Positions 17,451 through 63,608 of a DNA stretch of 64,000 nt are shown here, in pieces. The stretch comes from Desulfuromonadales bacterium (GTDB taxonomy: Bacteria; Desulfobacterota; Desulfuromonadia; Desulfuromonadales; BM103), in assembly GCA_027065695.1 (NCBI GenBank), contig JAMONP010000046.1, positions 36,295 through 100,294 of the forward strand, read 5' to 3'. Position 1 is the first letter of the stretch. Each line of letters opens with the position of its first letter. The position numbers and the translations under genes are program-made. The notes beneath the pieces are model-generated. The model was not told where the DNA came from and searched no databases. It saw only the letters and a program-made list of their open reading frames with translations.

Positions 17451-17776
17451 GTCTGAGCTCCTTTTTCGTTAGGTTTTTCCGCCGCCTCCATCATTCCCTG
17501 CAACCGACCTGACACCATGTCAGGCACCCGGTTCGGGTCAGAAAGCGTGTGAATTGAATAGCTCATCCGTATAGCATGAGAGTGCGTAGAACGCAAGAGC
17601 TTTTTGAGCCTGCAGGCGACACAAAGGGGACATTACTACCTGGAACTAACGAATCAACAGTAACAGTATATATAGTGTTGCTGTATATGTGCTCTTGCGT
17701 TACAATTATCGGCAAATATTGGAGCTTTATAATTTAATTGTGGGCCTGGCCTCATAATATTAAGCGGAGTGCATAC

Positions 17777-20700
17777 ATGCTGACATGGATTGAGCCGTTG
17801 GGAGCGGGGGAAGCTTGCCAGAAGGATCAATATGATCCGGTTTGCCGGCGCGGGGTGCCGCAAGTGGTGCGGTTTGCAGTTATGGCTGTAATGGCTATGG
17901 TGCTTGGGTTGGCCGGATTTGTGGGGAGAGCCCAGGCAGTTACGGTCACAGATACCACTCCGACCTCAGCTGCATTTACAGCTAGTACCTGGACCAATCC
18001 GAACAATGCCTTGAGCCAGGATGACAACTATGCCACATGGAAAAACACCGATCAGTCCTACCTGGTTTTGACGGGCTTCGATTTCTCTTCTATACCGGAT
18101 AGTGCCCAGATAGATGGCGTTACCATCCTGGTGCGGGGGCTACACTCTTCTGGTACAGCAAACTATCGTGATTATGTTGTCGGTTTGACCAAAAACGCAA
18201 CTGCTATAGCTGGTACGGAAAAGAACAGCCTAACCGAAGGAACAACTTTTGCTACATCTGTCGCAGACTATACTCTTGGTGCCAACAATGACTTGTGGGG
18301 CACCACCTGGACTGCGACAGAAATTAAAAGTGCTAATTTCGGTGTTATGCTCACTGACAATAATGGAACACAAACCTCGACTACTCCAGGTTATTCCATC
18401 GATGTCATGTACATAACAGTTGATTACACGATTACCTGCAGTGAAACCACCCCCTCCTCAATCATCTGGAACGGCACCAATACTGCGGCTGGCAATTTTA
18501 ATGCTGCAAATTTTGTAACGCTCACCGATATTGTTAATGAAGAGTATCAGGTGACGGCAGGTTCTCCTGCAAGCGCGATTGACCTGGGGCACGGTGAGAC
18601 CGGTAACTGCAACAGCGAAACCTTTAATGGCAATATGCTTTATGTCGATGGCAATAATCCGGCCAATGCCACTGGTACCATCGACAGCATAAAGGCTGAA
18701 ATCGGTGCTGCCGGTGGCGATATCATGTTTTTCACCTGCGTGATGAGCGGTAACAATTGTACCGTCACAGATGTGACTCCCTGGCAGACAGCAACCGCTG
18801 GTCAGGTGAATAGCTGGTCCGGTTTGTCGTTGAGCGTGAATGCGGGTGACCTGCTGGGCTTTTATTACGACAACCTGAGTGGTCGAAGCAGGCCGACGGT
18901 TTGTCGTGACTCGATTACCGGGGTACGCTACCAGTTTGTTCAGGATAGTCCGATTCCTGCTGCGGGTCAGTTATATACTGTCGCTGATGGTGCTAATACC
19001 GATGCCCTGCAGATTTATGCTACGGGCAGCACTCCTGGGGAAACAATTATGATCCCCTGGAATGTTGATCCCCAGGAGGCATCAGCGGTCTTGACTGATG
19101 GCAATAGCTACAATTTGTATGCCCGTGGCAACGACAGCGAGTGCAACACGACCTACTATGGTGACCCTGCTGCTGCGAATACAACAGCAGACGGTATTTT
19201 ACAAAACTTTACCTGGAGCAGTGAGACCACTCCACCGATTGCGGGAGCGGTCACTGTCGCCCCAGATTCCGGCACGCAGGTTCCAGCCGCGTTTACCATC
19301 ACGACCTCTTTCACCGATAATGAGACTGCTGTCTCCAGTTGTGACTATACCCTTAATGGCGGTAGCAGCTGGTCAGCTGGTACAGTTTCTGGTTCAGGAC
19401 CCTATAGTTGTGCTGCCAATATCACCGGCCAGGTCGATGGTGCGTCACTGACCATCAATATGCGTGCTACCTCAGGTGGTGGTACGTCTACGGCAACTGC
19501 CATCAGCCGAACCGTTGATGCAGCCAGACCGACAGTGAGTATCGTTGTTGCCGGTTCCAGTAGTGGTACGCCGGTATCCTTTACAGTGACCTTCAGTGAA
19601 TCCGTAACCGCTTTCACCGCAGCTGATGTGGTGCTTGGTGGTACGGCCGGTGCGACCACTGCTAATATCAGCGGTTCTGGAAGTAGTTATACTGTGGATG
19701 TTACCGGTATGACAGCTGATGGTACCATCACCATGGATATCCCTGCTGATTCTGCCTTTGATGCCGTCGGTAATGGTAATACCGCTGCAACCCAGGCTAT
19801 GACCAGCTGGGTATCTTGTGCACCAACGGTCACCCAGATCACGGTCAGCAGCGCGACCAACCCGATTAACTACCCGGCGTCGACATCCAGCATCTCGCTT
19901 GCGGTCACCGGCGGCACGGGTACGATCAGCTCCACGCAGTGGTCCGATGACAACGGTACAACCTGGAACTCGACCGCAACTGTCTATACAGCACCGGCTC
20001 AGACGGTCGGTGCCATTACCATTAGCGGTCGAGCGATTGAAGATAACTGCTTAACGACTATGGCTACCGCCAACACGGTGACCCAGAACTTCGACACCCG
20101 CACTCCGTACATTGAACCTGGTACGGCGAGCAGTGCTCAGTATGGCCTCGACAAGGTTCGTATCACCATGCCGTACAGTGGTCTCAACGATGACAGCAGC
20201 GCTTCGGTCTCTGTCGCCTACGATCTGAATGGTGCAGCGCAGACTCAGGTTAGCACCAACCCGGTTATTGGTACTGGTCCGGCGATTATCGACCTCGGTG
20301 TTTTCTCCACCGGTGATGCAATTACCAATATCGTGGTGACTTATACCGATACACGCTGGTCATCTGCTCCAGGTAATGCTGTACAGAATCTGGCGGATAT
20401 TACTATGGTATCCTGGGCTGACAACAACCTGTTGCACAACAGTAACCGCTTCCCCGGTACCAGCAAACATGGTGGCGATTGGGGCACTTTGACCGGTTAT
20501 GCCGGCGGTATCGTATGTGCTACCTGTCACGGCAAGAACACCGGTAATGTTAAACGTGTCAGAGCGACTATCAGCTACCCTGATGGCAGTAGTATGCCAG
20601 GTGGCGGCAGCATCGCCACAGTTAATCTGCAGTCCCTCGTAGATGGTAGCTCAGATTTTGGTGACGACAACACGGCACCACGCAGCTCGTCAAACAAGGT

Positions 20701-23620
20701 CTGCGAAGTCTGTCATACCTATGATGTAAATCAATTGGTCGGCACCAGATTCCATGCGGCCAACCAGCAGGTGACTACCGGCCATTACGATAACGCCGAC
20801 TGCATCAAGTGTCACGAGCACAAGGTTGGCTTTAAGGCCTCCTGTGACAACTGTCACGCTTCGCCACCAATCAATAATGCCACGGACCTGGTCAAGGATG
20901 GTTCCTCTCCTGGTGATGCCACCGGTTCACTTACGGTAGGCAAACATAACAAGCACGCCAATACTCTCGCCTATGGCTGCAATACTTGCCACAGCGGCTG
21001 GGAGTCCAGCGGTGAGATGCCCAATGGCGGCCAGATCAATGTTGGCATCATGACTCCGGGTAACAATGGCGGTACTTACGATGGCCGCGCCGGTGGTGGC
21101 GGTTATAATGCCGATCTTGGTACCGGTACGACTGTTACCACTGGTGGAGCATTGACCTGCGCCATCTACTGCCATGGCAATACCATCGGCGGCACTATTT
21201 CCACGGCAGTCTGGAACGATGCGGCAACCATCTCTTGTGGTGATTGCCATAAAGGCACTGCCACGCAGATGCAGGCTGGTGCCCTCGGCAGCCACACTCG
21301 CCATGCCGGCAACTCTACCGCTGCCACTTATCAGCTCAACCTGACCTGTGATAACTGTCACGGCACTGTGCCGGTTTTGGGTGATACCCATATGGACGGC
21401 CTGGTAGCCTGGGATGTCACTGCGCTGAACGGCAGTACCCCGACCTATGCCGGAGCTGCCAACGGCAGCGCCGGTCCGGCTCCAACTACTTATGACAGCT
21501 GTGCTAATGTCTACTGTCACAGCGATGTGCAGAACGATGGTGCTTCAGCTGTGTCACCGACGTTCGCAGCCCCGACCTGGGGTGGTACAGTTGCCTGTGG
21601 CGATTGTCATGGCGACGCCACTGGTCGTCCGACCACTGGCAGCCATACCAAGCACAACTCTTATGTCTGCTCTGTATGCCACACTGCAGCTGGCGATGAA
21701 ACTGCTAGACATGCTGACAGCGAAATTGATATCGATATCGACAATGCCTACGGAGCCTCAGCAGCTTACAGCCAATCAGGAAACAATCCTGCCGGCAACG
21801 GTTATGGCAGCTGTTCGAATGTTTCCTGTCACGGTGCAAGCACCCCGACCTGGGGCGGTACAGTCGCTTGTGGTTCTTGTCACGGCACAGTTGGTGCTTT
21901 CAATGATAACCGCGACGGAGCGCCACCGGTTGACCTGGCCAACCTGAGTGGCTCCTATGAGGCAGGCAAACACCAGAAGCATCTCAATGTCAGCATGGCC
22001 AATACCTCTGATTACTGTAACCTCTGTCATAATGGTGCCGGTTACGGTACTGCCAAGCATGCTGACGGTACCGTTGACATGGTTTTCAATGCTGCCGCAG
22101 GCGGTAGCGCAACCTGGGCTGATTCCGGTATCAACGTTGCCCCTGGCGGCACCTGCGGCAGTCTTGACGCCAACAGCTGTCACGGTGGTATCAACTGGGA
22201 TCCAGCTCTGACCATCAGTTGTAATACCTGCCACGGCTTTGGCGGCACCGACCCCAATCATGTGAGCGACAGCCGCGGTATCTCCGGCACTAACTGTGAG
22301 CATTGTCATGAGACTGGTCATCCGCAGGGGACCACGTCGGCAAATTCGATCCTGATTGCCAACAACTTGACGGTGGGTATCAATTATAAGTCAGGTGGTA
22401 TTCATCTGCTCAAGACCATCCAAGGGGTTGCCAATACCACTGAGGCTGAGACCTGCTGGAGTTGTCACGATGCACAAGGGACTCAGGTTTCAGAGTGGGG
22501 TGTGAACAACAACGCCAATACAGGTGGTCTGGGTTATGATTATGGCACTCTCAGCACCAGTGACTGGACCGCAGCGACCTGGACCTCAGGCACCGCTGAC
22601 TTCAGCTACAAAACTGGTGCCATCCAGTCTACCCATTCAGTTAATAGTGCTGGTACTGCAGCTGTCACAGGATCTGATTATGCCAAGACTGAAACCAAAG
22701 ATATTGTAGACAATATTCGCTGTTCCTACTGTCACGATGTTCATGATCGCAATCTCACCAGCGGTGACAGTGTAACCGGTCAACCTTATCTGCGCGGCAC
22801 CTGGAAGGGCAATCCTTACAATGAAGATGGTGCGCCCCAGTCAGGGGTAACTACAGGCTGGGCCAATAACGGCACTTACGGCGAAGTTCCCCGGGCCAGC
22901 ACCAGTACTACCAACAATGGTGGCGTGGGCGGCTACTGGATCGACGAAAACAGTGGTGATCCAAATAATGGTGAGAGTCTCGACAGTACGGCCAGTTTGT
23001 GTAAACTCTGCCACAGTCAGGGCTACACCAGTGCTGCAGATATCGTCAACAACATGGATTATACAACCGGGGAGAATCTCTGGCTCGGTACTAATGGCCA
23101 CAGCAATGCGGTTCTTGATGGTGACGGTACCTATCAGACCAACATCTTCACCAGCGCCAGGCGTGGCCTGGCCGATGCTGATGTGAATGGCACATATACC
23201 AAGGTAGATATGGGGCTGTCGAGTTCCACTGGTTGGGCAAGGAGTTACCGTGGCGATGGTGGTTATAATTACAATCCAACTTCTGGATACTGGCAGTATA
23301 GCTATCAGAACTTTGCCTGGTCAGTGACAGTTGACGATGCCACAACTGACACCAACTACCACAACTTTAACTGTGGCAAATGCCATAATCCGCATGCCTC
23401 ACGGCTGCCTAAGTTGATGATCACCAACTGCATGGACACCAGACACAACGATTGGGATGATGATTATCAAGCTTCGAGTGTGAGTGGCGACACCTTTAAC
23501 GGTGCTCATATGTCCCAGTGGCCTTCGGCGCAGAACTGTCATCGTCGTGGCGACCCGGCTGAGGCTGGTGGCGATGGTACTTCTTTGGGAACGGGCTGGA
23601 ACAAGGTCACGCCATGGTAG
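17777..23620 (+). CDS. large secreted multiheme c-type cytochrome-like protein (about 17 CxxCH plus CxxxCH/CxxxxCH/CX7CH motifs) with Ig-like N-terminal half
   Basis: Signal peptide-like VVRFAVMAVMAMVLGLAGFVGRAQA; manual count of heme motifs CATCH, CEVCH, CIKCH, CDNCH, CNTCH, CGDCH, ... CGKCH; 'CxxxxCH...CGDCH' pairing typical of Geobacter multiheme proteins. Confidence 0.93.
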   Translation: MLTWIEPLGAGEACQKDQYDPVCRRGVPQVVRFAVMAVMAMVLGLAGFVGRAQAVTVTDTTPTSAAFTASTWTNPNNALSQDDNYATWKNTDQSYLVLTGFDFSSIPDSAQIDGVTILVRGLHSSGTANYRDYVVGLTKNATAIAGTEKNSLTEGTTFATSVADYTLGANNDLWGTTWTATEIKSANFGVMLTDNNGTQTSTTPGYSIDVMYITVDYTITCSETTPSSIIWNGTNTAAGNFNAANFVTLTDIVNEEYQVTAGSPASAIDLGHGETGNCNSETFNGNMLYVDGNNPANATGTIDSIKAEIGAAGGDIMFFTCVMSGNNCTVTDVTPWQTATAGQVNSWSGLSLSVNAGDLLGFYYDNLSGRSRPTVCRDSITGVRYQFVQDSPIPAAGQLYTVADGANTDALQIYATGSTPGETIMIPWNVDPQEASAVLTDGNSYNLYARGNDSECNTTYYGDPAAANTTADGILQNFTWSSETTPPIAGAVTVAPDSGTQVPAAFTITTSFTDNETAVSSCDYTLNGGSSWSAGTVSGSGPYSCAANITGQVDGASLTINMRATSGGGTSTATAISRTVDAARPTVSIVVAGSSSGTPVSFTVTFSESVTAFTAADVVLGGTAGATTANISGSGSSYTVDVTGMTADGTITMDIPADSAFDAVGNGNTAATQAMTSWVSCAPTVTQITVSSATNPINYPASTSSISLAVTGGTGTISSTQWSDDNGTTWNSTATVYTAPAQTVGAITISGRAIEDNCLTTMATANTVTQNFDTRTPYIEPGTASSAQYGLDKVRITMPYSGLNDDSSASVSVAYDLNGAAQTQVSTNPVIGTGPAIIDLGVFSTGDAITNIVVTYTDTRWSSAPGNAVQNLADITMVSWADNNLLHNSNRFPGTSKHGGDWGTLTGYAGGIVCATCHGKNTGNVKRVRATISYPDGSSMPGGGSIATVNLQSLVDGSSDFGDDNTAPRSSSNKVCEVCHTYDVNQLVGTRFHAANQQVTTGHYDNADCIKCHEHKVGFKASCDNCHASPPINNATDLVKDGSSPGDATGSLTVGKHNKHANTLAYGCNTCHSGWESSGEMPNGGQINVGIMTPGNNGGTYDGRAGGGGYNADLGTGTTVTTGGALTCAIYCHGNTIGGTISTAVWNDAATISCGDCHKGTATQMQAGALGSHTRHAGNSTAATYQLNLTCDNCHGTVPVLGDTHMDGLVAWDVTALNGSTPTYAGAANGSAGPAPTTYDSCANVYCHSDVQNDGASAVSPTFAAPTWGGTVACGDCHGDATGRPTTGSHTKHNSYVCSVCHTAAGDETARHADSEIDIDIDNAYGASAAYSQSGNNPAGNGYGSCSNVSCHGASTPTWGGTVACGSCHGTVGAFNDNRDGAPPVDLANLSGSYEAGKHQKHLNVSMANTSDYCNLCHNGAGYGTAKHADGTVDMVFNAAAGGSATWADSGINVAPGGTCGSLDANSCHGGINWDPALTISCNTCHGFGGTDPNHVSDSRGISGTNCEHCHETGHPQGTTSANSILIANNLTVGINYKSGGIHLLKTIQGVANTTEAETCWSCHDAQGTQVSEWGVNNNANTGGLGYDYGTLSTSDWTAATWTSGTADFSYKTGAIQSTHSVNSAGTAAVTGSDYAKTETKDIVDNIRCSYCHDVHDRNLTSGDSVTGQPYLRGTWKGNPYNEDGAPQSGVTTGWANNGTYGEVPRASTSTTNNGGVGGYWIDENSGDPNNGESLDSTASLCKLCHSQGYTSAADIVNNMDYTTGENLWLGTNGHSNAVLDGDGTYQTNIFTSARRGLADADVNGTYTKVDMGLSSSTGWARSYRGDGGYNYNPTSGYWQYSYQNFAWSVTVDDATTDTNYHNFNCGKCHNPHASRLPKLMITNCMDTRHNDWDDDYQASSVSGDTFNGAHMSQWPSAQNCHRRGDPAEAGGDGTSLGTGWNKVTPW

Positions 23621-47756: not shown

Positions 47757-48718
47757 TTATCCTTTCGGTGATGGCACCTTGTAGAACATGCAGTAAAGCG
47801 CCGGCACCACCAGCATAGTCAGCACCGTACCGAAAGCCAGGCCGGCCATGATTGTGATCGCCATACCAACCCAGAACACATCCTGCAACAGCGGCACGAC
47901 ACCAAGCACTGTAGTGGCAGCAGCCAACACCACCGGATGCAGACGTGCCAGAGCGGCGATGACTACAGCATCATACTGTTCCATGCCATCAGCAAGGTTG
48001 ATGTTGACCTCGTCCAGCAACACGATGGCATTCTTGATCATCATCCCCATCAGGCTCATGGCACCGAGCAGGGCCATGAAGCCAAAAGGCGCGCCAAAAG
48101 CCAGCAACCCGGTGGTGATGCCGATCATGGCAAAGGGCACGGTCAGCATGATCACAATCGGTGGCCGGAAGGCATTGAACAGGGCCACCAGAATAAAGAG
48201 GATGACGGCAAAGGTTGGCACAAAGCCCGGCAGCAAAGCCTTCTGTGACTTGGCCGAATCTTCAGTGGTTCCACCCCACTCTGCCTTGTAACCAGGCGGC
48301 ATTTTGAGAGCCTCGACCTTGGCCCGGACATTCTTCATTACGGTCGGCAGGGTAACACCAAGCACCGGGTTGGCCTGCACTGTTACAGTCCTACGGCGAT
48401 CACGACGCCAGATCCTGGTCTCCTCCCACTCCACCTTGGTCCCATCAGTTACCTGGGCAATCGGCAAGGAACTAGTGGAGAACCCGGGCTGGACCTGCAG
48501 AATGTCCATCGAAGCGAGGCTGGCACGGTCTTCCTCAGTATGCCGTAGAATGATCGGTAGTAGTTCATCGTTTTCACGGTAGAGCCCAATAGGCAAGCCA
48601 TCATAGGCACGCTTGGTAGCGGCAGCCAAGAGCAAAAGGGTGTCTCTAATCGAAAGCAACAGGAACATTGCTAAACAACGAGTGGCAGACATGATAAACT
48701 TCAATAGTTGATAACTGG
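47757..48718 (-). pseudogene. 5'-truncated RND/AcrB-type efflux transporter (C-terminal ~300 aa only)
   Basis: GTTEDSAKSQKALLPGFVPTFAVILFILVALFNAFRPPIVIMLTVPFAMIGITTGLL...GMMIKNAIVLLDEVN; upstream edge lies against the 157-bp repeat, which supplies the first residues of the track ORF. Confidence 0.85.
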
Positions 48719-48875
48719 TGTCCCGTGCGGTTAATCGTGACGAATAATTCTGAGACATTTTGGTTGCTATCAAGGCGTGCTGATGAAGGCCTAGCGTGCG
48801 TTAAGCCAAAGAGGCGCAACGCAGACAGCGGGCAAAAGGGCCATAATTAAAGGATAGGATTAGCCGCACGGGACA
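48719..48875. mobile_element. 157-bp MITE-like element, copy 2
   Basis: TGTCCCGTGCGGTTAATC...GATTAGCCGCACGGGACA; ~5 differences from copy 1 by eye. Confidence 0.85.
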
Positions 48876-48989: not shown

Positions 48990-49805
48990 ATGCCTTGGAG
49001 AGTTACTCAAAATTCACGCCTGCGCCGCCTTTTTCTCGAAGGTTTCTCGGCCATGGATGTTGCTGAGCCCCTGGTTTCTTTTGATGATTATGCCAAAGCA
49101 GCAGGCGTGCAACAGTTTATGCAAGACAAGGGCTTCAATCTTGTTGGCGTGCGTCAAAACGGTCTGGTCGAAGGCTATGTACGCTGTGAGGATTTGACCT
49201 CCGGCACCTGCGGTGATCACTTCCAGCCCTTCACCCCGGACGATGACCTGGTCCCTGACACCGCAAACCTGATCGACGTGGTCAAATCACTGGCCATCAA
49301 CCAGCAATGCTTTGTCACTATCCTTGACCGGGTTGGTGCCATCATCACCTTGACTGACCTGGAAAAACCACCGATGCGCATGTTCCTGTTCGGTATGATT
49401 ACCATGATCGAAATGACTATGACGGAGATTTTGCGGCAACGTTACGCCGACAATTCCTGGCAAGAATTTCTCTCTGAGAAACGGCTTGCCCTGGCGAGAA
49501 ACCTCTAGGAAGAGCGCAACCGGCGCGGTCAACAGGTTGAGCTGCTCGACTGTCTGCAATTTGGCGACAAGGGCTGGATTATCACTTACGACGAAGAAAT
49601 TCGGGATGCCATGGGGCACAAATCCCGTAATGAGACCCGTAAAGCAGTTAAAGAGTTTGAGACTCTACGCAACAACCTGGCACACACACAGGAGATTATC
49701 CCCAGCGGCTGGCAACGCATCATCATCGCATGCAGTCGTTGGGAGAATACCCTGGAGAGAACTGCAGAACATTACGTTCATGACCAGGAGAAGAACCAGG
49801 AATGA
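48990..49805 (+). pseudogene. CBS-like N-terminal domain + HEPN-like C-terminal domain, single gene interrupted by in-frame TAG at 49506-49508
   Basis: Same frame continues past TAG as EERNRRGQQVELLDCLQFGDKGWIITYDEEIRDAMGHKSRNETRKAVKEFETLRNNLAHTQEIIPSGWQRI...; LRNNLAH matches HEPN Rx4-6H pattern. Confidence 0.72.
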
Positions 49806-50371
49806 TGCCGCTGAACCGTCTTGAAGATGAGCTAAGGGACCGGCAAACCGACTGGTGGGATCGCCTCACTGAAACGATCCCGGAGCTGCTGCCGTTGGCG
49901 GAGACCGCACAACCACCTGAATTCCATGCCGAAGGCGACGTCGCCACCCACACCCGTCTGGCGATCGAGGCCTGCCCTACTGATTGCGACCCCGACCTGC
50001 TGTGGGTCGCCCTGCTGCACGATATCGGCAAGCCAGCCACTACCAGACAGAGTGAGGATGGGCGCATTACCGCTTATGGCCACGCCAAGCTGGGGACAGA
50101 GATGGCCGACGACATCCTCGAGCGTCTCGGCATGCCGACAAGACGCCACGAACGGATTCTCTGGGCAATCCGCCACCACCTCTTTCATCACTCCTGGCAA
50201 TTGCGCAAAGCGGAGGATCTCAGTAAAAGGCAGAGAAAATATATGACAGACCCGAACTTCCCCCTGCTACTTGAGTTCTTAAGAATTGACACTCTCGCAT
50301 CACAAGGCAATTCGCACGGCATGGCGGCCTACACCTTCTACAAAAAACTCTGGAAGTCAATGCCACGATAA
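49802..50371 (+). CDS. HD-domain phosphohydrolase, resembling the HD part of CCA-adding enzymes
   Basis: DVATHTRLAIEACPTDCDPDLLWVALLHDIGKPATT...HAKLGTEMADDILERLGMPTRRHERILWAIRHH; start overlaps preceding stop. Confidence 0.85.
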   Translation: MMPLNRLEDELRDRQTDWWDRLTETIPELLPLAETAQPPEFHAEGDVATHTRLAIEACPTDCDPDLLWVALLHDIGKPATTRQSEDGRITAYGHAKLGTEMADDILERLGMPTRRHERILWAIRHHLFHHSWQLRKAEDLSKRQRKYMTDPNFPLLLEFLRIDTLASQGNSHGMAAYTFYKKLWKSMPR

Positions 50372-60070: not shown

Positions 60071-60595
60071 TTGGCTTATCTGTTCCGTCACTTTCGTCTG
60101 ACGCTTAATTTACAAAACCGGCAACTTTGGGTGGGTTCGTTGAAATCTGCAAAAGGGGTTCAAGTCGTAGATGCAACGCAGGGTCGCTTCGATTTCCTCG
60201 GTTTTGAAATCCGTATAGTCAGGAGCCGGCGAACCGGTGGCAGATACGCCAACGTGCAGCCCTCCAGGAAGTCCCTGAAGAAGATCAAAAACCGTCTGAC
60301 AGACATGACCCGCAGAGAGCTGACTTGTATACCACTGAAAGATGTTGTGGATAACGTCAACAAAACGCTGCGGGGTTGGAGTGCGTATTTTCATTATCGC
60401 AACTGCAGCAAGGTGTTGTCGAGAGTCAGAACCCATGCAGAGCAGCGATTGCACACCCATCTTAGAAGGCGGCACAAGATCAGACGAAGGGTTTCAGGTT
60501 ACGGACGCTTTACGGATCAGAGTCTGTATGAAAGATATGGGCTCTCCAAGGTGCCAACAACAGCTGGTTGGACGAAGGCGCATGTCCTGCGGTGA
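60071..60595 (+). pseudogene. group II intron reverse transcriptase/maturase, C-terminal (X/DNA-binding region) fragment
   Basis: FDFLGFEIRIVRSRRTGGRYANVQPSRKSLKKIKNRL...LKDVVDNVNKTLRGWSAYFHYRNCSKVLSRV...RYGLSKVPTTAGWTKAHVLR; no YADD catalytic region. Confidence 0.88.
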
Positions 60596-61909: not shown

Positions 61910-62826
61910 ACAAACGAACAACTCCTGGAACGGATCAGGTCGATCAATGTCAACAGGAATGGCGATCGCAGGGCTCCCCATAAGCCGCTACTGCTTCTCG
62001 TTGCGATTGCGAATCTGTTGCAAGGCAAGCGTGAACTGAGCTTTACAGAGATCGAGGGGCTTCTTCGTCCTCTTCTGAACGCATATGCTCCACCGGTAAG
62101 TGGTCAGCATGAACCGAAGTTGCCCTATTGGCATCTTCGTTCGGATCAATTGTGGGAGATCTCAGGTGACAGCGAACTCCCTCTTCAGCAGGGGGGCTTC
62201 CCGCAGATGGAGGGACTTCGAACCAGCTCTGGTCACCTACCCGAGATGTTTGCGAAGGCTTTGCAGCGGAGTGAAACTCTGGTCGATACTGTCGTTCAAA
62301 TGGTTCTGGATGCCCACTTCCCGGAATCGCTTCATGATGACATTCTTGCGGCTGTCGGCCTGACGTCTTTTACTGAGAACATGGTTGCTGAAGAACAAGC
62401 ACCTTATGGACTTGCCCGGAAACGTGATCCGAAATTCAGGGAGAGGGTTTTACGTGCTTACGAGCATCGATGTGCTGTCACTGGCTTTCGTGCGGCTCTT
62501 GGAGGTTCGTATTTCTGCTGGAGGCAGCGCATGTCAAATGGCATGCTTATGAAGGGCCAGATACAGTCGAGAATGGTCTGGCTATGGAGCCGACTCTGCA
62601 CAAACTTTTCGATGCCGGTGCCTGGAGCCTCACTGATGACAGAAGGATTCTGGTTTCGGCGGATTTCACTGGAAGTGATGAGGCTGTGGAGAAGATTCGC
62701 AGCCTTCATGGACGTCCACTTAGGCCGCCGCAGCAGGGTATGCCTTTGGTGTCGACTGAATACATTCGGTGGCATCGGGAGAAGGAGTTTGGGGGTGTTT
62801 TTCGCCATCCGGCGTTGTCTCTTTAG
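61910..62826 (+). pseudogene. SBD-HNH type IV restriction endonuclease (phosphorothioated-DNA-binding / ScoMcrA-like), frameshifted near 62513
   Basis: N-terminal ERIRSINVNRNGDRRAPHKPLLLLVAIANLLQGKRELSFTEIEGLLRPLL...KLPYWHLRSDQLWEI; frame shift then LLEAAHVKWHAYEGPDTVENGLAMEPTLHKLFDAGAWSLTDDRRILVS...RPLRPPQQGMPLVSTEYIRWHREKEF. Confidence 0.8.
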
Positions 62827-62846
62827 GAGTAGGGGGAATATCTATA

Positions 62847-63608
62847 ATGCTTAGCGTTGGATGGACACGACAGCAACTGCTTGTTGCCTTCAAACTCTAT
62901 TGCCAACTGCCTTTTGGGAAGTTGCATTCCCGCAACCCTTTAATCATCAAATACGCCGAATTGATAGGGCGTACACCCTCTGCTTTGGCGATGAAGCTGA
63001 CCAATATCGCCAGCCTTGATCCGGCTATTACCTCAACGGGTCGCAAGGGGTTGAAGGGTGCATCGGCTGTAGATAGGGCGATGTGGAACGAGATGGAGTC
63101 TGACTGGGATCGATTTGCGCTTGAATTGCAGAATGCTACATTCGATTTAAACGCCCCAGATGAGGAATTTCAAGAGATCGAACTTGACTATACCGGTATT
63201 GATAAGATTGCTCAGGTCAAAACCCGTGTAGGTCAGAATTTTTTCCGCAGGTCGGTTTTGAGTGCTTACCATGACCAATGCTGCATTTCCGGGCTAGCTG
63301 TGCCAAAATTGTTGATTGCCAGCCATATCGTTCCGTGGCGAGTTGATGAAGCCAACCGTCTCAATCCTAGAAACGGACTCTGTTTGTCGACACTACATGA
63401 CAAGGCTTTTGATGCCGGGATGCTTACCATTGCAGAAGATATGACGGTTTGTGTCTCTCGAAGATATGCGAAAAAGGGTGATGCTTTTTATGGCACGGCA
63501 TTGCTGGCTTACGATGGCCAACCCATGAAAATGCCGGAGAAGTTTGTTCCAGATTCTGAGTTTCTGGCGTATCATCGAGAATCTGTTTTTGAGAGTGGGT
63601 GGAAATGA
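62847..63608 (+). CDS. HNH endonuclease
   Basis: RRSVLSAYHDQCCISGLAVPKLLIASHIVPWRVDEANRLNPRNGLCLSTLHDKAFDAGMLTI. Confidence 0.88.
   Translation: MLSVGWTRQQLLVAFKLYCQLPFGKLHSRNPLIIKYAELIGRTPSALAMKLTNIASLDPAITSTGRKGLKGASAVDRAMWNEMESDWDRFALELQNATFDLNAPDEEFQEIELDYTGIDKIAQVKTRVGQNFFRRSVLSAYHDQCCISGLAVPKLLIASHIVPWRVDEANRLNPRNGLCLSTLHDKAFDAGMLTIAEDMTVCVSRRYAKKGDAFYGTALLAYDGQPMKMPEKFVPDSEFLAYHRESVFESGWK

Follow-up and report, generated by a model that had tools for sequence, protein, structure and literature searches.

A CBS-HEPN gene interrupted by an in-frame TAG and its overlapping HD phosphohydrolase gene in a Desulfuromonadales bacterium, and their relatives in other genomes

Fusions of CBS and HEPN domains, some of them with an HD domain, were described by Anantharaman et al. 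in 2013, with Pelobacter propionicus gi 118580987 and Nostoc alr3009 as examples, and regulation of RNA degradation by a nucleotide ligand was proposed there, as it is in the present work (PMC3710099). A one-protein CBS-HEPN anti-phage system, DS-11, was validated in 2026 in Science (DefensePredictor, PMC13092281); its defence was lost when a CBS tyrosine (Y157) with a predicted adenine contact was mutated, and likewise when the catalytic residues of the HEPN were, and its ligand was stated to be undiscovered. Beyond the 2013 remark, no paper on an HD partner of CBS-HEPN proteins was found in the searches made of the open-licence literature. Two further systems offer likenesses. In type III CRISPR, CARF-HEPN effectors (Csm6/Csx1) place an HEPN RNase under the control of a nucleotide sensor, and their activator is removed by separate enzymes, the ring nucleases. 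In HEPN-MNT pairs, a HEPN RNase with an R-x4-6-H motif adjoins the gene of a small nucleotide-handling enzyme.

The locus studied here lies in a stretch of 64,000 nucleotides (the window) from a Desulfuromonadales bacterium. It consists of two genes, A and B, in the following arrangement:

48990-49805, + strand: gene A, 271 codons including an in-frame TAG, encoding a CBS pair followed by a Swt1-like HEPN
48990-49505, + strand: open part of gene A 5' of the TAG, with a short N-terminal helix, the CBS pair (about residues 22-125) and the beginning of the helical part
49416-49742, + strand: HEPN_Swt1 domain of gene A (Pfam PF18731), residues 143-251 of the read-through, across the TAG
49506-49508, + strand: in-frame TAG, codon 173 of gene A, a premature stop between the CBS part and the HEPN motif
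49509-49805, + strand: gene A 3' of the TAG, up to the natural stop (TGA, 49803-49805); the alignment with relatives reaches nearly its end
49668-49685, + strand: R-x4-H catalytic motif RNNLAH (R227-H232) of gene A, with R and H invariant in 25 relatives
49802-50371, + strand: gene B, an intact HD-domain phosphohydrolase of 189 aa, overlapping gene A by 4 nt (ATGA)

Gene A shares with the proteins of 2013 a Swt1-like HEPN with an R-x4-H motif, active in those proteins, the CBS part and the association with HD, and it resembles DS-11 in joining CBS and HEPN in one protein, a likeness of domain make-up. In contrast with the locus, DS-11 is a single gene without an HD partner. As compared with CARF-HEPN systems, CBS stands in the place of CARF and HD in that of the ring nuclease, with no CRISPR genes noted nearby; as compared with HEPN-MNT pairs, the partner is an HD protein and not a nucleotidyltransferase, and the HEPN is joined to a CBS sensor and in many cases has no partner gene. 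The domains and the two-gene unit are genuine. The combination, presented as possibly new in the preliminary description, is already known from the 2013 paper, and a CBS-HEPN anti-phage protein from that of 2026.

Read through the TAG, gene A scored 29.5 bits against HEPN_Swt1, over the Pfam cut-off of 27.5 bits, and this cut-off was also exceeded in two relatives (L042 and L046), the profile being matched at E up to 0.1 by the C-terminal parts of 24 of the 25 relatives. The R, L, A, H, Q, and W residues in and after RNNLAH were invariant in all 25, down to 30% identity. This upheld the HEPN assignment that had been made from the LRNNLAH stretch in the C-terminal helical part, located where the preliminary description had placed it. 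The isolated HEPN part, all-helical in its model, gave no significant PDB match with Foldseek (a HEPN toxin appeared at rank 7, with E 3), a profile search of the PDB returned chance-like helical and designed proteins only, and the match to the CARF_HEPN profile was weak; the HEPN assignment thus rests on the profile, the motif and the earlier assignment in the literature.

The CBS part was recognized by its fold. An AlphaFold2 model of full-length gene A (20-row alignment) had a pLDDT of 83.9, mostly above 88 over the part 5' of the TAG, and a Foldseek search with it returned 190 PDB structures with E no higher than 0.001, with CBS pairs at the top ranks (probability 1.00, TM-score up to 0.73), so that the CBS-like reading of the N-terminal part also stood. 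The best matches were the CBS pairs of CorC/CNNM, CBSX2, and IMPDH, with ATP- or AMP-bound pairs among the top-ranking ones, and Pfam CBS scores were below the cut-off in most members of the family. T-x-x-D is a nucleotide-binding signature of CBS modules. In the 20-sequence alignment of the family D123 was invariant and T120 nearly so, which fits this signature; binding of an adenine nucleotide is predicted. Between the nearest intact congeners dN/dS was around 0.05-0.06 for gene A and around 0.15 for gene B, and gene A is under strong purifying selection in the relatives.

Gene B scored 45.7 bits against the Pfam HD profile PF01966 (cut-off 22 bits), and H50, H73-D74, H94, H126, and D163 were conserved in its family. 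On this profile and the conserved H...HD...D metal residues it is assigned as a putative HD phosphohydrolase, in agreement with the HD gene and 4-nt overlap of the preliminary description. Among solved structures, the closest in sequence was that of a tRNA-end enzyme (deposited under the name poly A polymerase; 3wfo family), which matched in its HD part with E 5e-8. It also scored against TIGR02692 (CCA nucleotidyltransferase) and PRK10885 (multifunctional CCA protein), weakly in both cases, and many HD proteins probably give such scores.

The TAG at codon 173 is the sole premature stop in gene A, without any frameshift, and seven relatives at 70-88% identity lack it. The preliminary description had the domains of gene A right and mentioned a "restored" protein, leaving the stop unstated; gene A is not one open frame. 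Translation that ended at the TAG would leave a CBS pair and a stub without catalytic function. Gene A of this genome is taken to be inactivated by a nonsense codon 5' of the catalytic motif, and gene B remains intact. Since no frameshift is present and the window copy still shows dN/dS of 0.08-0.09 against the intact relatives, the stop is either recent or an artefact of sequencing or of the population sampled. The alternative that the TAG is no real inactivation, whether the assembly is in error here, the metagenome population holds the stop as a rare variant or the codon is read through, draws on this intact remainder of the frame, which makes the stop very recent at most. Against it, V5 and C66 are altered in the window where the aligned relatives have the same or similar residues, a hint of relaxation, and read-through by pyrrolysine was rejected, the best PylS match in a genome 99.95% complete reaching 20.4 bits as compared with a cut-off of 178 bits, with matches of some kind to this profile in 13 of 14 control genomes too. 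We consider this alternative rather unlikely; it bears on nothing but the break and can hold together with the reading preferred below, a nucleotide-gated RNase with an HD enzyme.

Gene A was found in ten genomes of the window's family, and in each of them gene B follows it (the contig of one, G011, ends inside gene B), as had been anticipated for a genuine pair. Pairs were also found outside the family, in another family of the same order (G483 and G535) and in other lineages of the phylum (G191 and G232), which gives 14 genomes in all, plus one natural fusion. In this fusion (L046, from a Desulfuromonadaceae MAG), the two genes are merged into a single chain of 461 aa with the HD part C-terminal. 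The ATGA overlap was present in most pairs and recurred at seven other loci (L043, L044, L045, L047, L048, L065, and L070). The linkage of CBS, active HEPN and HD described in 2013 was thus found in the pairs and in the fusion, gene A of the window itself being interrupted. The partner HDs of the window type formed a group of their own in the tree, and the solo HDs on chromosomes of the order fell outside it (support 91/88). The pair is accessory, and the near-complete congeners G002 and G006 have no gene A. In the congener G007 (L052), gene A was damaged between residues 142 and 171 by an internal deletion and a change of frame, with the HD gene intact; this assembly is fragmented and the break may be an artefact. 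A solo gene B in G044 was nested inside the paired HD clade, and no remnant of gene A was found beside it. When pairs decay, gene A tends to go, as judged from these two genomes and the window, which are few cases. Relatives of gene A were not found on viral contigs, and a search of plasmids and phages with its nearest relative as query gave no match. Haloarchaeal plasmids carried divergent CBS-HEPN relatives at 21-33% identity, mostly named CBS domain-containing protein (NZ_CP054709.1:21587-22351 is an example).

A second type of HD was linked to the same core. In Geobacter-like genomes of the class (G482, G600, G606, and G506, with G613 partial), HD, CBS, and HEPN were encoded as one chain in which the N-terminal HD belongs to PF13328, the RelA/SpoT type, with an HDxxED motif, and in the gene A tree the first four genomes clustered together with full support, separately from the clade of the window. 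Unlike the chain of G482, the HD of the window is encoded by a separate downstream gene and is of the CCA/HDIG type (PF01966). Two HD subfamilies are therefore linked to one CBS-HEPN core, which favours a role of the HD enzymes in handling the controlling nucleotide. Many other CBS-HEPN genes had no HD in the flanks fetched (L049-L051, L053, L054, L060-L063, and the cyanobacterial L086-L098); their hosts included Leptolyngbya, Desulfobacterales, Verrucomicrobiales, and others, most of the cyanobacterial members were of this kind, and three such genes fell within the clade of the paired genes. This indicated that the HD protein is an optional regulator and not a required one. The Nostoc alr3009 example was not confirmed in the cyanobacterial class sample, where full-length members lacked HD in the fetched flanks. 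Five cyanobacterial CBS-HEPN-like proteins of about 400 aa (L101-L105) had an extra C-terminal domain in place of HD, which was DUF3293 (PF11697) in both of the two checked; DUF3293 is thus another partner domain for a core similar to CBS-HEPN.

The surroundings of the pair were ordinary. Among 73 neighbours at 8 loci, the enrichment in defence genes that had been suggested as a check was not seen, and each PADLOC family listed matched one protein only. By Pfam the neighbours were efflux pumps, a chaperonin, phosphoglucose isomerase, enolase, and similar housekeeping genes, and such neighbours are compatible with a role in defence. Flanks varied between genomes, with GroEL in G001 and G004 and an MCE-like/lipoprotein gene pair in both G009 and the window, where its sizes agree between the two. 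Beside the interrupted gene A, a frame of 338 aa (47757-48773, - strand) resembles only part of an RND efflux pump and looks truncated or decayed. Elsewhere in the window, all on the + strand, a frame of 1960 aa with many CxxCH motifs (17738-23620) suggests a multihaem cytochrome of very large size, 60071-60595 resembles the C-terminus of a reverse transcriptase/maturase from a group II intron and is probably a remnant, and two overlapping HNH-type, restriction-like frames in different reading frames (62018-63608) are possibly a frameshifted gene.

The reading that we prefer, with a probability of roughly 0.45, is that gene A encodes an RNase gated by an adenine nucleotide, that the HD enzyme of gene B removes this ligand, and that the system serves in stress or against phages. 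The CBS pair would bind an adenine-type nucleotide and control the C-terminal Swt1-like HEPN RNase through its R-x4-H motif, the protein probably acting as a dimer. The product of gene B, whose start overlaps gene A, would most likely hydrolyse the controlling nucleotide and act as an off switch or timer, resetting gene A much as ring nucleases reset CARF-HEPN effectors; RNA degradation under stress or phage attack would be the likely use. The analogy with DS-11 lends support to the gating of gene A and suggests the anti-phage role, and the ligand, the RNase activity and the direction in which the HD step would work are likewise inferred.

Gene B could instead act on the RNA products, removing the 2',3'-cyclic phosphate ends left by the HEPN RNase and so enabling repair or degradation of RNA (tRNA, for example). 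HD domains of CCA enzymes have 2',3'-cyclic phosphodiesterase activity, and both the nearest solved relatives of gene B and its CCA-like scores point in this direction; however, the low level of these scores and the RelA/SpoT-like HDxxED family, typical of nucleotide pyrophosphohydrolases and ill-suited to the processing of RNA ends, make this proposal improbable. A classical toxin-antitoxin pair, with the HEPN protein as toxin and the HD protein as a protein or enzymatic antitoxin as in HEPN-MNT, would agree with the overlapping two-gene layout and with the loss of A while B stays (the nonsense codon of the window, the deletion and frameshift of G007, the solo HD of G044), but we hold it to be just as improbable, since the many uninterrupted CBS-HEPN genes without an HD neighbour, three of them inside the pair clade, argue against a strict form of it, strong conservation and the presence of a CBS sensor would be unusual in a toxin gene, and one of the breaks is the doubtful one of G007.

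Returning to the nucleotide-gated RNase, we propose more tentatively that it represents a CRISPR-independent, nucleotide-signalled form of RNase control, in which CBS-HEPN proteins are reset by a dedicated HD enzyme and HD subfamilies, the CCA/HDIG type downstream or C-terminal and the RelA/SpoT type N-terminal, were recruited independently. To the published record the present analysis adds the two-gene form with a different type of HD, the C-terminal fusion, and the presence of two HD subfamilies on one core. An HD enzyme beside or fused to this core offers a handle on the ligand, as whatever such enzymes hydrolyse becomes a candidate for it, and the two subfamilies point to small phosphorylated nucleotides. 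If the HD protein does reset the CBS-HEPN protein, its substrate would reveal which ligand controls DS-11 and other CBS-HEPN proteins of defence.
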